A stretch of 52,559 nucleotides of DNA, from positions 1 through 52,559 of the forward strand of contig CAJYQM010000405.1 in assembly GCA_913777025.1 (NCBI GenBank), read 5' to 3'. This DNA is from an uncultured Massilia sp. (GTDB taxonomy: Bacteria > Pseudomonadota > Gammaproteobacteria > Burkholderiales > Burkholderiaceae_D). Of this stretch, positions 27,013 through 50,030 are shown piece by piece; the stretch's first letter is position 1; every line of letters begins with the position of its first letter. The notes beneath the pieces were generated by a model. The model did not search any database. It saw nothing but the letters and a program-made list of their open reading frames with translations, and was not told the DNA's origin. Made by a program: the position numbers and the translations under genes.

Positions 27013-27014
27013 AT

Positions 27015-27111
27015 CAGGGACAGGATGGCGGGCACCGCCTGCCGCTGTCTCATCAATTGGGGACAAAGTGGATGCATGGAAACGATAGTTTCAGATTAAA
27101 TGGGGACAGGG
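27015..27111 (+). repeat. Left GGGGACA module beside the transposase-like gene
   Basis: The stretch upstream of the transposase-like gene holds a GGCGG-GCA-CCGCC hairpin flanked by GGGACAG and CTGTCTC. Two GGGGACA boxes follow (27059-27065 and 27102-27108), separated by about 36 bases that include CGATAGTTTCAG. A diverged inverted copy with the same order of blocks lies at 30817-30880. Such repeats are typical companions of REP-associated transposases. Confidence 0.6.
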
Positions 27112-27159
27112 CGCTCGGGCTGGGCTAGAATACCGGGATTCTGACCGTAACCGACGACC

Positions 27160-27876
27160 ATGGCCCGCCAGCCCCGCCTCATCATCCCGAACCAGCCGCA
27201 CCACCTGATCCAGCGCGGTAACGACAACATCGCCATCTTCCGCGACGACGAGGATTACCGGCAATTCCTTGGCTGGCTGAAGGAAAGCGCGAAGTTCTAC
27301 CACGTCGCCATCCATGCCTGGATGCTGCTGCCGGATCAGCTGCAATTACTCGCCACGCCACTTGATGCGGATGGGCTGGCGCTGATGATGCAGAAGGTCG
27401 GACGCCTCTACGTGCCCTGGTTCAACGCCAAACACGGCCGCTCAGGCACCTTGTTCGGCGGGCGCTTCCGCACCGCCGTCATCGATCCGGCCCAGTACTT
27501 CCTGGCCTGCATGCGCTACATCGAACTGCACCCGTTGCGCGTGCAGCAGGCACAGGCGCCCCAGGATTATCCGTGGTCGAGCTATGCGCATCACGCCGGC
27601 ATCCATGCCGACAGCCTGATCACGGACCACATCAAGTACTGGGAACTGGGCAACACGCCGTTCCAGCGCGAGGCGGCGTACATCCAGCTGGTACAGCAGG
27701 GCTTGTCGGCCGAGGAATTGGCGACGATCGACCAAGCGGTGCTGAAGGGAGCGGCACTGGGGTCGCATGCATTCAAGTTAGCGCTGGAGAAGAAGACCCA
27801 GCGCCAGATCCTGCCAGCCAAGCGCGGACGGCCGTTCAAGGCCAAGTCACCCGACACGGACGGCACCCCATCCTGA
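27160..27876 (+). CDS. REP-associated tyrosine transposase-like (Y1/IS200-type) protein with altered HUH motif
   Basis: A 238 aa protein of the IS200/RAYT family. The N-terminal HHLIQRGNDN, the central GTLFGGRFRTAV and the MRYIELHPLR segment are characteristic; Tyr120 there is the expected nucleophile. The metal-binding His-x-His is missing. Where relatives read PNHVHLL this protein has PDQLQLL, with Gln60 and Gln62 (codons CAG and CAA) at both His positions. The family cleaves single-stranded DNA at palindromes and spreads REP sequences; without HUH this copy is unlikely to do so. It sits among GGGGACA modules. The C-terminus is Lys/Arg-rich (RGRPFKAK), suggesting retained DNA binding. Confidence 0.88.
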   Translation: MARQPRLIIPNQPHHLIQRGNDNIAIFRDDEDYRQFLGWLKESAKFYHVAIHAWMLLPDQLQLLATPLDADGLALMMQKVGRLYVPWFNAKHGRSGTLFGGRFRTAVIDPAQYFLACMRYIELHPLRVQQAQAPQDYPWSSYAHHAGIHADSLITDHIKYWELGNTPFQREAAYIQLVQQGLSAEELATIDQAVLKGAALGSHAFKLALEKKTQRQILPAKRGRPFKAKSPDTDGTPS

Positions 27877-27972
27877 AGGCCGTTCGCGCCGTCCAGGCGC
27901 CGGCGGTCGCACCGGGCGGCGATCCGTCGCTTGCCGCTGGCCAGCCTTGCTGCCACTGGTACACTTGCCAGC

Positions 27973-29124
27973 ATGCAAACTAAAACGACCCTGCCCCTGG
28001 CCTGGCGCTCGCTGTGGGAACTGCGCCGCACGCACAGCGTGTCCACCGGCATGCGCCTGCTGGCGGCCTCCCTGCTGGCGGTTGCGCTGGCGCTGGGCCT
28101 GATGTCGACCGTCGCCGTGTTCGGCCACGTCGACCGGCCCAACTGGTGGATGGCGTCGCTGCTGCCGAACATCGGCATCTGCCTGTGCATCGTCCACACG
28201 CTGCTCGCCACGCTGCGCCTGGCCGAGCGCCTGCTGCCGCCGGCGCTGGTCGAGCGCATGTCGGATGTGCGCGACATCCGTGCCGGCATGGCGCTCAGCG
28301 CGCTGGCGCTGTTCGGCATCATCCTGGGCATGACGATCGGCTTCACCATCGTGCCGATCCTGGTCGGCTTCAATGTGTGGGGGATGTTCGCGTCGCTGCC
28401 GGCGGCGCTGACCAAGTTTGCCGTGTTCCTGCTGTTCGTGATGGCCGCCAACTGGGTCTGGTGGCGTGCGCGCCTGCGCGAGCAGCAGTTGCGGCAGGAT
28501 GCCCTGGACGCGCGCCTGCGCCTGCTGCAGGGCCAGATCGAACCGCACCTGCTGTTCAATACCCTGGCCAATGTGCAAAGCCTGATGGACTATGATCCGC
28601 CGCGCGCCAAGCGCATGCTGGAAACGTTTTCGGCCTACCTGCGCGCCGGCATGACGCAATTGCGCGAGACCGACAGCACGCTGGCCTCAGAAATCGAAAT
28701 GGCGCGCAGCTACCTGGCGCTTTACCAGATCCGCATGGAGGAGCGCCTGCAATTTCGCATCGAGGCGGGCGAGGCCGCCCTGGCGGCGCGCATGCCGGCC
28801 CTGATGCTGCAGCCGCTGGTCGAAAACGCCATCCACCATGGCCTGGAGCCGAAGCTCGACGGCGGCAGCGTGCTGGTCAGCGCGCAGGTCGAAGACGGCC
28901 GGCTGCGGGTGCGCGTGGCCGACGACGGCATGGGCCTGGCGGCGCCGAGCCGGCGCCTGCGTCCCGGCGCCGGCATGGCGGTGGCCAACCTGCGCGCGCG
29001 CCTGCAGACCCAGTTCGGCCTTGGGGCCAGCCTGACGCTGGAAGCGGCGGACCCGGGCACGCGCGCCGTGCTCGACCTGCCTTACCGGACTGGCGCCGGC
29101 GTGGCGGCCGGGGTGGCGTCATGA
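27973..29124 (+). CDS. LytS/YehU-type sensor histidine kinase
   Basis: A 383 aa membrane kinase. Four or so hydrophobic segments occupy about residues 28-50, 60-80, 104-135 and 142-163. A coiled linker and the His-kinase domain QIEPHLLFNTLANVQ with phospho-acceptor His192 follow. The ATPase part contains LMLQPLVENAIHHGLEP and ADDGMGL. This class lacks a periplasmic sensor and senses in or near the membrane. ATG 27973 is chosen over the frame start at 27931 because it removes an unrelated leader. Its TGA overlaps the LytTR regulator start (ATGA at 29121). Confidence 0.92.
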   Translation: MQTKTTLPLAWRSLWELRRTHSVSTGMRLLAASLLAVALALGLMSTVAVFGHVDRPNWWMASLLPNIGICLCIVHTLLATLRLAERLLPPALVERMSDVRDIRAGMALSALALFGIILGMTIGFTIVPILVGFNVWGMFASLPAALTKFAVFLLFVMAANWVWWRARLREQQLRQDALDARLRLLQGQIEPHLLFNTLANVQSLMDYDPPRAKRMLETFSAYLRAGMTQLRETDSTLASEIEMARSYLALYQIRMEERLQFRIEAGEAALAARMPALMLQPLVENAIHHGLEPKLDGGSVLVSAQVEDGRLRVRVADDGMGLAAPSRRLRPGAGMAVANLRARLQTQFGLGASLTLEAADPGTRAVLDLPYRTGAGVAAGVAS

Positions 29125-29894
29125 TGCGCGCCCTGATCGCCGACGACGAGCCGCACCTGGCGCATTACCTGCGCGACCAGCTGCTGGCCTTGTGGCCGGA
29201 CCTGGACGTGGTGCACATCGCGCGCAACGGCGTCGAGGCGGCGGCGCGCATCGCCGAACTGGAACCGGACCTGGCCTTCCTCGACATCCAGATGCCGGGC
29301 CTGAACGGCCTCGAAGTGGCGCAGGGCATCGAGGGGCGGACTCGCGTGGTGTTCGTGACCGCCTTCGACGACTACGCGCTGCAAGCCTTCGAACATGCCG
29401 CGCTCGACTACATCCTGAAGCCGGTGGCGCCGGAGCGGCTGGCGCGCACCGTGGCGCGCCTGCGCGCGGCCCCGGCCGGTGCGGCGTCCGATGCCGCCCT
29501 GGCCGAGGCGCTGCGGCGCCTGATGGGGCAGCCGGCACAGATGGCACAGATGGAGCAAAGGGCCCGCGCACCGCTGCGCTACATCCGCGCCGGCCAGGGC
29601 GAGCGCACGCACCACCTGGACGTGGCCGAGGTGCTGTTCTTCCGGTCCGACGACAAGTACACGGTCGTGACGGGCGCGCGCGGCGAATACCTGATCCGCA
29701 CCACGATCGCCGAACTGCTGGCCCAGCTCGACCCGGCGCAGTTCTGGCAGGTGCACCGCTCGACCATCGTCAACCTGGCCTGGCTGGACGGCACCCGGCG
29801 CGACGACGCCAGCCGCCTGTTTCTGCGCATGCGCGGCCACGACAGCGAGCTGCCGGTAAGCCGCGCCTTCGTCCACCTGTTCAAGGCGATGTAG
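29121..29894 (+). CDS. LytTR-family response regulator
   Basis: A 257 aa regulator. The N-terminal receiver (ALIADDEPHLAHYLRDQ) has phospho-acceptor Asp55 in LAFLDIQMPG. The C-terminal LytTR DNA-binding domain is at about 155-255 (RYIRAGQGERTHHLDVAEVLFFRSDDKY and WQVHRSTIVNL). It partners the kinase it overlaps. LytTR systems commonly control secreted, cell-wall or membrane genes; the alpha/beta hydrolase gene downstream is one candidate target by position only. Confidence 0.94.
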   Translation: MMRALIADDEPHLAHYLRDQLLALWPDLDVVHIARNGVEAAARIAELEPDLAFLDIQMPGLNGLEVAQGIEGRTRVVFVTAFDDYALQAFEHAALDYILKPVAPERLARTVARLRAAPAGAASDAALAEALRRLMGQPAQMAQMEQRARAPLRYIRAGQGERTHHLDVAEVLFFRSDDKYTVVTGARGEYLIRTTIAELLAQLDPAQFWQVHRSTIVNLAWLDGTRRDDASRLFLRMRGHDSELPVSRAFVHLFKAM

Positions 29895-30009
29895 TTTTCC
29901 TGGCGGCTTGCCATCCGTCGCGCCTGCCGTCGATCCGTCGCACGGCGGCTGCGCCGGCCCGCCTGGATTGCGATGCTGGCGTCTCCACCGATCACACAGG
30001 AGCGCCGCC

Positions 30010-30807
30010 ATGTCCATGTTTGTCCTGCAATTCGTCCTCACCCTGTTGCTCGCCCTGGGCACGGCCCACGCCGCGCCGCCCGATACCGTGGTCGACACCA
30101 TCGGCGGCCAGCGCATCGAATCGCTGACGATCCGCCATCCGGATGCGAAAGCCGTGATCGTGTTCGAAGCCGGTTCGCGCGGCACCATCGCCGGCTGGGG
30201 CACGGTGCCGGCCGCCGTCGCGCGCGACGCCACCGTGTTCGCCTGGAACCGGCCCGGCTACGGCAACAGCGCGCAAGCCGCCACGCCGCGCGATGGCCGC
30301 ACCATCGTCGAGGAACTGCGCCGCGTGCTGCGCCACAAGGGGTTGAAGCCACCCTACGTGCTGGTCGGGCATTCGCTGGGCGGCCTGTACATGCAGTTGT
30401 TCGCGCGCGCCTATCCGGACGAGGTGAGGGGACTGGTGCTGGTCGATTCGCTGTACCCGCGCGTGGTCAAGAAGAGCGCCGACTTCCCGCTGGCGACCCG
30501 CATCGCGGGGCGGCTGGCGTTTTCCCGTACCGCCTGGGCCGAGATCGAAGGCATCGACGAGACCGGGGAGGCGGTGCTGGCGCTGGGCGGCATCGACGAC
30601 AAGCCGATCATCCGGCTGATCAATGTGCCGAAGGATGCCACCGCGATCCCGGTCGACTTTGGCGCCTTCCGGATGGACTCAGCAACCCGAGACTTCGTGC
30701 GCGGGCTGTACCCGAATGCGAAAACCGTGGTGGTGGATGCGAGCCACCAGATGCAGTTGACCCATCCGGATGTGGTGATCAAGGCGGTCCAGGACATCCT
30801 GAGGTGA
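30010..30807 (+). CDS. Secreted alpha/beta hydrolase
   Basis: A 265 aa hydrolase with an N-terminal signal peptide (MSMFVLQFVLTLLLALGTAHA). The nucleophile elbow is GHSLGG with Ser122, and a late His in DASHQMQLTHP probably completes the triad. AGGAG eight bases upstream fixes ATG 30010 over the longer frame from 29908. The fold covers esterases, lipases and lactonases, so the substrate is not assignable. It follows the LytTR regulator by 115 bp on the same strand. Confidence 0.88.
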   Translation: MSMFVLQFVLTLLLALGTAHAAPPDTVVDTIGGQRIESLTIRHPDAKAVIVFEAGSRGTIAGWGTVPAAVARDATVFAWNRPGYGNSAQAATPRDGRTIVEELRRVLRHKGLKPPYVLVGHSLGGLYMQLFARAYPDEVRGLVLVDSLYPRVVKKSADFPLATRIAGRLAFSRTAWAEIEGIDETGEAVLALGGIDDKPIIRLINVPKDATAIPVDFGAFRMDSATRDFVRGLYPNAKTVVVDASHQMQLTHPDVVIKAVQDILR

Positions 30808-30816
30808 CTTCTTTTA

Positions 30817-30880
30817 CCATGTCCCCATTTATTTTTTGAACGATCAGACTTTAATTTAATTTTACTCCGACCCTATTTAT
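30817..30880 (-). repeat. Right GGGGACA module, inverted relative to the left copy
   Basis: Read on the minus strand it gives AATAGGGTCGGAGTAAAA, then TGATCGTTCA, then AAATGGGGACATGG. That is the same block order as at 27054-27111. It is AT-rich and lies in the 144 bp before gltB, which otherwise holds only the GGAG ribosome site of gltB. Confidence 0.6.
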
Positions 30881-30951
30881 TGTGGTTGATGTTTATCCGG
30901 CTCTGCTCTATTCTCGTTTTTCGATATTCATAAAATGCTGTGGAGCCCTTC

Positions 30952-35673
<4,722 letters not shown>

Positions 35674-46948: not shown

Positions 46949-47035
46949 CGTCGCCCCTGCGAATGCAGGGGCCCAAGTTGGAGGCGCAGCCAAAATGCAA
47001 GCAGCACTTGGGCCCCTGCCTTCGCAGGGGCGACG
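46949..47035. repeat. 87 bp composite palindromic element between murA and hisG
   Basis: The element begins CGTCGCCCCTGCGAA and ends TTCGCAGGGGCGACG, with inner arms CCCAAGTT/CACTTGGG. It has the same 87 bp length and layout as the gltB-gltD element, with matching changes on both arms (CCCCTGC/GCAGGGG). Paired substitutions across the stem show that structure is kept. Confidence 0.88.
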
Positions 47036-49074: not shown

Positions 49075-50030
49075 CGGACTGGGTCGACCGGGTCTTCTGC
49101 GAGGATGCGCTGGCCGGGCTGGCGCGCATCCCCGACGGGTCCATCGACCTGATCCTGACCGATCCGCCGTACAACCTCGGCAAGGATTACGGCAACGATT
49201 CGGACCAGCTCAGTGCCGAGGACTACCTGGTCTGGACCGAAGCCTGGATCGATGCGGCGCTGCCCAAGCTGAAGGACAACGGCAGCCTGTACATCTTCTC
49301 CACCTGGCGCAACACGCCGGAAATCTTTGTCATGCTCAAGCGCCGCATGACGATGATGAACGAGATCATCTGGGACCGCCGCGTGCCCTCGATGGGCGGC
49401 AGCACCCGCAGCTTCAGCTCGGTGCACGACACGATCGGCTTCTTCGTGAAGCGCAAGGATTACTATTTCGACCTGGATGCCGTGCGCATCCCCTATGACG
49501 AGGCGACCAAGAAGGCGCGCTCGCGCTCGATCTTCGTCGGCGCCAAGTGGCTGGAAGTCGGCTACAACCCGAAAGACCTGTGGAGCGTGTCGCGCCTGCA
49601 CCGCGAGCATGCGGAACGGGTTGGCCACCCGACCCAGAAGCCGCTCGAAGTCATCGAACGCATGGTCAAGGCGTCCTGCCCGCCGGGCGGGATCGTGCTC
49701 GACCCGTTCATGGGCAGCGGCACCACGGCGGTGGCGGCCAAGCGGCTCGGGCGCCATTTCGCGGGCTTCGAGCTGAACCCGGATTATTGCGCGATCATCG
49801 AGCAGCGCCTGGCCGCGCCGGCGGTGCCGGCAAAGAAGCGGGCCGGGACTGGCCGCAAAAAGGACAAGGCTGTAACAAGCGCTGACCCCAAGACCGTCAT
49901 TCCCGCGCAGGCGGGAATCCAGGTTGCACGCATGCCGCAAACAAACTTGGGCTCCCGCCTGCGCGGGAGCGACGGTGCGGACGCCAACGATCAGAATGTA
50001 GACAACGCCACCCAAGGAGTAACCCAATGA
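49071..50030 (+). CDS. Site-specific DNA methyltransferase (beta class), inside the his operon
   Basis: A 319 aa amino-methyltransferase. Motif IV comes first ([11 protein letters not shown], catalytic DPPY at 31-34). The AdoMet motif I comes late ([28 protein letters not shown], 209-236), preceded by [14 protein letters not shown]. This is the beta-class order, and DPPY favours N6-adenine methylation. The recognition sequence cannot be read. There is no restriction gene nearby, so it is an orphan. It overlaps hisD upstream and hisC downstream, both as ATGA. Residues of about 275-302 are encoded by a dispersed palindromic element; the catalytic domain ends before about residue 250. Confidence 0.95.
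49895..49974. repeat. 80 bp palindromic element inside the methyltransferase gene
   Basis: The element begins CGTCATTCCCGCGCAGG and ends CCTGCGCGGGAGCGACG, with the AACTTGG inner arm conserved. It is a slightly shortened copy of the 87 bp family and is read through in frame, giving VIPAQAGIQ and SRLRGSDG in the protein. Confidence 0.88.

Follow-up and report, generated by a model that had tools for sequence, protein, structure and literature searches.

An intact RAYT/TIRYT-like gene near gltB that lacks its HUH residues suggests a DNA-binding switch rather than a cutter

The window, i.e., the whole stretch of 52,559 nucleotides from an uncultured Massilia sp. that was analysed (contig CAJYQM010000405.1), carries a gene for a RAYT/TIRYT-like protein, followed on the same strand by three interposed genes and by gltB (Table 1). 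Short repeats resembling terminal inverted repeats (TIRs) lie upstream of the gene, around the sole sigma-70-like promoter found for it, and again upstream of gltB.

Table 1. Features of the window around the RAYT/TIRYT-like gene and gltB
Feature	Position	Strand	Basis or remark
Weak upstream TIR-type site ATCAGGGACAGGA with two mismatches, 43 bp ahead of the following site	27013..27025	+	pattern scan
Upstream TIR-type site ATTGGGGACAAAG	27056..27068	+	pattern and matrix
Upstream TIR-type site AATGGGGACAGGG, overlaps the -35 hexamer	27099..27111	+	pattern scan
Sigma-70-like promoter, GGGACA - 17 - TAGAAT	27103..27131	+	consensus match only; 1 found, 0.1 expected
Gene for RAYT/TIRYT-like protein, 238 aa, catalytic centre degenerate	27160..27876	+	open reading frame, alignment, model, fold match
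Gln-Leu-Gln codons CAG CTG CAA at the HUH position, residues 60-62	27337..27345	+	sequence
Tyr120, equivalent of catalytic Y115 of E. coli TnpAREP	27517..27519	+	count on 4er8 profile alignment
His124, equivalent of metal ligand N119 of E. coli TnpAREP	27529..27531	+	count on 4er8 profile alignment
K-R-G-R-P C-terminal tail, AT-hook-like	27820..27834	+	by inspection; G223 and R224 invariant in 108 sequences
Three genes between the RAYT/TIRYT-like gene and gltB	27931..30807	+	names from translations by inspection
Sensor kinase	27931..29124	+	inspection of translation
LytTR-type regulator	29121..29894	+	inspection of translation
Esterase-like gene	29908..30807	+	inspection of translation
Inverted TIR-type site upstream of gltB (site 3)	30817..30829	-	pattern and matrix
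Main gltB-promoter site (site 4) TTAATTTTACTCCGACCCTATTTATT	30856..30881	+	window's best matrix match, 44.1 bits
gltB, glutamate synthase large subunit	30952..35673	+	in almost all relatives examined, adjoins the RAYT-like gene or lies close to it

A preliminary description of this DNA had reported an intact frame of 238 codons in which Gln-Leu-Gln replaces the His-x-His motif while Tyr120 and the rest of the fold are retained, and each of these points held. The frame is open throughout, Tyr120 is present, and QLQ (Q60-L61-Q62) stands where most relatives have His-x-His; the interval given for the motif, 27337-27351, does contain it but spans QLQLL, with QLQ itself ending at 27345. The same position reads QLQ in a second genome (G012) and HLQ in a third (G037), so that the motif of the window gene is not a one-off sequencing error. 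A further change went unmentioned there: position 124 is His instead of Asn, and only Y120 and P125 are left of the Y---NP motif. In E. coli TnpAREP the corresponding residue, N119, is described as contributing to the metal site alongside the histidines (PMC6006769). With H60, H62, and N124 replaced, the window protein is without three of the four residues scored, and ordinary HUH catalysis has likely been lost, as far as the residues can tell.

The AlphaFold2 model of the protein has a mean pLDDT of 95, and its best match among solved structures is TnpAREP 4er8 (Foldseek E 3.6e-8; VIA-align Z 17.3 over 159 residues, rmsd 2.5), i.e., the Y1-transposase core fold of the RAYT/TnpAREP proteins (TnpA-Y1 class 2). 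A PDB sequence search with the whole protein returned 0 matches, and a PDB search with a 108-row profile reached 4er8. Pfam gave no match to the window protein, a Pfam family scan of the genome missed the gene, and NCBIfam NF047646 (REP_Tyr_transpos) scored it at 40 bits, below the cut-off of 80; in the alignment of 108 relatives, Pfam Y1_Tnp matched 97 and REP_Tyr_transpos 107 of the 108. The C-terminal part is predicted to be helical in the AlphaFold2 model; taken alone it found no fold match by Foldseek (model pTM 0.41) and no HTH family by Pfam. Pfam AT_hook matched 7 of 74 C-terminal parts weakly, with a best E of 0.034, and in our own reading the KRGRP tail around the invariant G223 and R224 resembles an AT-hook.

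The window family belongs in subclass 2.1 of the TnpA-Y1 proteins, as a relative of the RAYT/TIRYT transposases, a placement made on length, Y motif, C-terminal extension, and flanking repeats of the GGGGWSAS type. This subclass (Quentin et al. 2018; Bertels group 1; probably the TIRYTs of Di Nocera et al. 2013) is the nearest known system; it is thought to contain the TIRYTs, and its median length is given as 238 aa (Quentin et al. 2018, PMC6006769). The window protein likewise has 238 aa, an N-terminal Y1 core, a YIELNP-type Y motif, and a C-terminal extension of ~100 aa, and its gene has a low copy number and flanking GGGGWSAS-type repeats. TIRs of this type are described as neighbours of TIRYT genes (PMC3733652), and here GGGGACAG lies upstream at 27102-27109; the inverted sites at 30817 and 30856 lie past the three interposed genes and are not exact GGGGWSAS forms. 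Unlike in subclass 2.1, HUH, often together with Tyr and Asn, is gone in many lineages of the window gene. Furthermore, the gene is nearly universal in its own family and tied to gltB, whereas the distribution of subclass 2.1 is described as patchy (Quentin et al. 2018, PMC6006769). A C-terminal HTH-like domain has been published for TIRYTs; here the C-terminal part is predicted to be helical, and neither Pfam nor Foldseek on that part alone matched it to an HTH.

E. coli TnpAREP (RAYT; PDB 4er8) shares the fold with the window protein, and its Tyr and Asn positions can be aligned, but the window protein is without HUH and has an extra C-terminal domain, and its gene has gltB linkage and TIR-type sites as neighbours. 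RAYT genes are flanked by GTAG REP palindromes; beside the window gene no long inverted repeat was found, and TIR-type sites stand there instead. The TnpA proteins of IS200/IS605 elements (IS608, ISDra2) have the same Y1 core fold. They differ in coming in several near-identical copies, against one copy in the window's own genome (G000, which has in addition a 39 percent identical paralog and a 26 percent weak match), in keeping the metal residues that are lost here, and in a Y---Q motif against Y---HP in the window protein and Y---NP in its relatives.

An ortholog was found in 61 of 62 genomes of the own genus, 60 of them full length; the exceptions are an ortholog cut by a contig end (G049) and a genome with a paralog-level match only (G024). 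Eight loci in one set of nine are from Massilia. Within the family, 382 of 392 genomes match, mostly once, at an E of at most 1e-40, a threshold that a paralog can reach, as in G024; six genomes of the own genus (G013, G019, G024, G030, G049, and G056) stood outside this draw of 392. Eight of the ten family genomes without a match are also without a gltB match, and six of these eight are less than 90 percent complete. Among the matchless genomes, G095 has a 35 percent identical relative beside gltB and G159 has the gene in two pieces beside gltB. The latter is a reduced genome of 1.7 Mb in which the gene (L217) is broken over two frames and the sites are degraded. Low copy number is the rule for RAYT genes, as is vertical inheritance, which the conserved place near gltB suggests for the window gene as well, in a reading from synteny. 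All counts of orthologs were made after dropping repeats of the same genome or place (L001, L005, L006, L034, L035, L036, L039, L074, L083-L085, L135, and L171), the 26 percent match L004, seven paralogs of 39-43 percent, L042, and L073, which is cut by a contig end.

How often have the catalytic residues been lost? Counting as loss the replacement of at least one of H60, H62, and Y120, we found it in 19 of 60 orthologs of the own genus and in 12 of 40 representatives, these being the first genome with a match from each of 40 other genera (no match came from g8, g14, or g35). The overall figure of 56 of 152 is inflated by enriched sampling, since four g6 genomes with QHYV were followed by the addition of 14 more from g6 and 6 from g40; the two former figures are free of such enrichment. 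The HUH forms include QLQ, HLQ, HVI, HAI, QLH, QWQ, SID, SVM, and YWC, and Tyr120 is F, H, or L in 16 of the 152 orthologs, with S or V seen in a few further rows. The QxQ form is thus not a single conserved clade, a possibility that the preliminary description had proposed to check; it is one of many erosions (QxQ, HxQ, HxI, QxH, SxD, Tyr to F/H/L, and others). Lost histidines are most often replaced by Gln, in 30 of 38 cases at position 60 and in 12 of 24 at position 62, counts inflated by 16 sequences of one genus. Parsimony requires 21 changes on a 185-row tree built without the four catalytic columns, which is poorly resolved, with good support on only 44 of 182 inner branches and with L216 and L217 left out. 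Some residue-lost members sit on long branches. In the 8 independent pairs that rest on well supported branches alone, loss of the Asn ligand tracks HUH/Tyr loss in 5.8 on average and goes the opposite way in 0.0 (median p 0.03).

Codon models (GY+F3X4) were fitted to 11 clades. For the window clade (n=3) omega is 0.091 and omega=1 is rejected (2dlnL 209), so the dN/dS check proposed beforehand came out as purifying selection. The other four residue-lost clades have omega values of 0.093, 0.096, 0.084, and 0.090, and six intact clades range from 0.047 to 0.071; omega=1 is rejected in all 11 (2dlnL 209-1066). Constraint is strong, and somewhat weaker after residue loss. The ~1.5-fold higher omega of lost compared to intact clades counts against a regulatory role. 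The frame is open, over 226-252 codons, in every one of the 56 residue-lost orthologs sampled, and the 16 QHYV sequences, all of genus g6, keep a frame of 235 codons. The earlier reservation that the change might be unique and the gene decaying elsewhere can be set aside, as loss is recurrent, frames are open, and selection is strong.

The gene has kept its place as well as its frame. Of the 96 intact orthologs, 87 have the start of gltB at most 500 bp downstream and in the same orientation, as do 48 of the 56 lost ones, and in other families of the order the gene is beside gltB in 20 of the 23 best-scoring loci, a set that excludes L224 because it is from the window's own family. gltB lies ~1.5-3.8 kb downstream in G037, G012, G026, G031, G072, G112, and G280, ~14 kb away in G073, and ~68 kb away in G062. 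The kinase and regulator genes also follow the gene in L018 and L050, and the esterase-like gene does so in L020. Among the papers listed in literature searches none linked gltB with RAYT or TIRYT genes; one co-occurrence was due to chance.

The motif at the gene's own promoter consists of copies of TTAATT[AG]GGGACAGAGTC, often two of them spaced 43 bp apart; upstream of gltB there are two oppositely oriented sites, 48 bp apart in most genomes, just before the gltB promoter. With a matrix trained on the gltB sites of 90 intact genomes and a threshold at the 99th percentile of dinucleotide shuffles, the gltB site passes in all but one of the intact genomes (89 of 90), in every lost genome scored (53 of 53, with the lost orthologs L018, L050, and L104 outside this test), and in all 4 genomes that have lost Asn alone. 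Mean scores are 41.8 for intact and 41.5 for lost genomes, and the best real-sequence decoy elsewhere in the 53 lost loci scores 3.5. After the lost sequences were thinned by similarity to 30, conservation is 1.36 bits per base over site 4 and 0.25 over the spacer. The top three positions of the window on both strands, 30856 (44.1) and then, far weaker, 27052 (0.8) and 30808 (0.3), all fall at the gene's own promoter or at that of gltB. The sites remain at gltB despite intervening genes (the window; L208-L214) and with the gene 14 kb (L218) or 68 kb (L215) away. Pattern scans of the window with two mismatches allowed gave 12 matches versus 16 expected and 13 versus 12 expected, which is not above chance.

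The gene and the sites also part company in places. The own-promoter site is above threshold in 82 of 92 HHYN and 46 of 56 lost orthologs, and it is unrecognisable in 10 of the 56, including L081 of the window clade, which speaks against a regulatory role. In other families the site core (at most 1 mismatch) lies upstream of gltB in 11 of 14 intact and 1 of 6 lost loci, again against such a role; under looser criteria L230 (intact) and L232 (lost) also count, for 12 of 14 and 2 of 6. No site core was found at L220 (G095), an own-family gene that is 35 percent identical, reads ERVA, and lies beside gltB. The gltB sites are kept at L219 (G153, 92 percent complete) and L221 (G104, 68 percent complete), where the nearest protein relatives found are 39 and 36 percent identical, so the site may not need a close ortholog. 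The core is present in 0 of 19 gltB upstream regions from 18 genomes of the order listed without a match to the gene (those so listed, less G403 and the family member G074, with 118 more outside the listing), a comparison that is confounded with phylogeny and in which gltB identity is at least 53 percent for 11 of the regions.

The preliminary description had proposed that the gene may be selected for a job other than cutting, such as binding palindromes. The part concerning selection stood, as given above. Palindromes are unlikely partners: the long ones of the window at 46949-47035 and 49893-49976 are unlike the TIR motif and far from the gene, and we favour instead the TIR-type sites found in front of gltB and around the promoter of the gene itself. 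These palindromes, of the CGTCGCCCC/GTCATTCCCGC type, are the longest inverted repeats of the window.

The pattern ACTCYGACCCTAATT is present in 196 of the same 392 family genomes, and its reversed control gave two matches in all. The gltB-type motif is present two or more times, and up to 56 times, in 23 of 91 intact genomes versus 0 of 54 lost ones (Fisher p 8e-6), a comparison over 145 genomes of known state that is confounded with phylogeny, with few origins of the multi-copy state; an independent-pairs test of copy number against catalytic state was not significant. Several dispersed copies form inverted pairs. Copies restricted to intact genomes are expected if proliferation needs the catalytic centre and the gltB site does not. 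For the exact motif forms, the window's own genome has 0 and 2 matches, one of them in the window. The TIR motif is dispersed and often palindromic, with up to 56 copies, at L248-L266 (including g33, g27, and g28) and in own-genus genomes such as G008, G009, and G040, and looks like a REP/MITE-like family of these genomes.

Taken together, the gene probably encodes a domesticated transposase that is retained for binding DNA and so regulating gltB and itself, while cutting is dispensable. An ancestral TIR-flanked tyrosine transposase (RAYT/TIRYT, subclass 2.1) would have become fixed upstream of gltB in Burkholderiales, and its terminal repeats would have come to resemble operators, as a group of sites covering its own promoter and a pair just ahead of that of gltB. 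The protein would bind these candidate sites and would have been kept mainly as a sequence-specific DNA binder regulating itself and glutamate synthase, so that cleavage could be abolished and the metal and tyrosine residues lost many times, as with Q60, Q62, and H124 in the window lineage. The catalytic centre appears expendable, the candidate DNA sites mostly not. Since the site at 27099 overlaps the gene's own -35 box, self-repression is suggested. On a wider scale it is possible, and we put it forward tentatively, at just short of an even chance, that a transposase became a standing regulator of nitrogen metabolism (glutamate synthase) in Burkholderiales, with repeats serving as operators and catalysis repeatedly discarded, in a series from active transposases with dispersed TIRs to pure binders.

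Could the gltB site belong to another regulator? It could, since gltBD is described as being under ArgR and NtrC in some Proteobacteria (PMC5343134). The protein would then have another non-catalytic job, such as binding single-stranded or hairpin DNA or RNA, and the neighbourhood would be historical. That the closest solved relative, 4er8, is bound to a REP hairpin agrees with such a job, as do the lost members of other families, mostly without the site, and G153 and G104, which keep the site with no close ortholog found. A different reader of the gltB site is at odds with the recurrence of the same motif at the gene's own promoter, with the exact form ATYGGGGACAGAGT, which lies beside the gene in 47 of 55 matches (31 of 62 genomes with matches), with the GGGGWSAS-type TIRs described for TIRYT genes (PMC3733652), and with the core missing from all 19 gltB regions of the listed gene-less genomes; we regard this explanation as rather unlikely.

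Catalysis might also be altered and not lost, with Gln60, Gln62, and His124 holding the metal and Tyr120 cutting. Gln substitutes for one His in some other HUH enzymes, Tyr120 is still there in the window clade together with a residue at 124 that could act as a ligand, and Gln is the most frequent replacement, yet His to Gln takes a single base change. In other lineages these HUH positions are occupied by I, S, D, A, M, Y, C, or R, 16 of 152 orthologs are without the Tyr, loss of the Asn ligand accompanies that of HUH/Tyr in most of the independent pairs, and the 54 lost genomes hold no extra gltB-type motif copies, which together leave altered catalysis improbable. The modestly raised omega of lost clades, the long branches of some lost members, and the broken gene and degraded sites of G159 are what a decaying transposase remnant, held by slow drift only, would look like. 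Such decay is hard to credit with omega near 0.09, omega=1 strongly rejected, and frames kept in all 56 lost orthologs and in the g6 sequences with QHYV. Regulation of gltB and of the gene itself by a DNA binder that can do without cutting remains our preferred reading.

What exactly RAYT transposases do is described as unknown (PMC8049555). With a RAYT relative that persists through repeated residue loss, linked to gltB and accompanied by conserved sites, this question becomes testable. More telling than the residue change is where it occurs, in a core protein that derives from a transposase and is tied to gltB. Surveys that require HUH or a match to the Pfam Y1 model can miss genes under selection, since Pfam is blank on the window protein and sequences without HuH/Y were set aside as probably nonfunctional by Quentin et al. 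(2018, PMC6006769). Elsewhere in the window's own genome, the 39 percent identical second copy (G000:C70; L003, L074) has HVH, Tyr, and Asn intact, is flanked by ACCGGGGTCAGAGCCCG and its inverse, and looks like an ordinary TIRYT.
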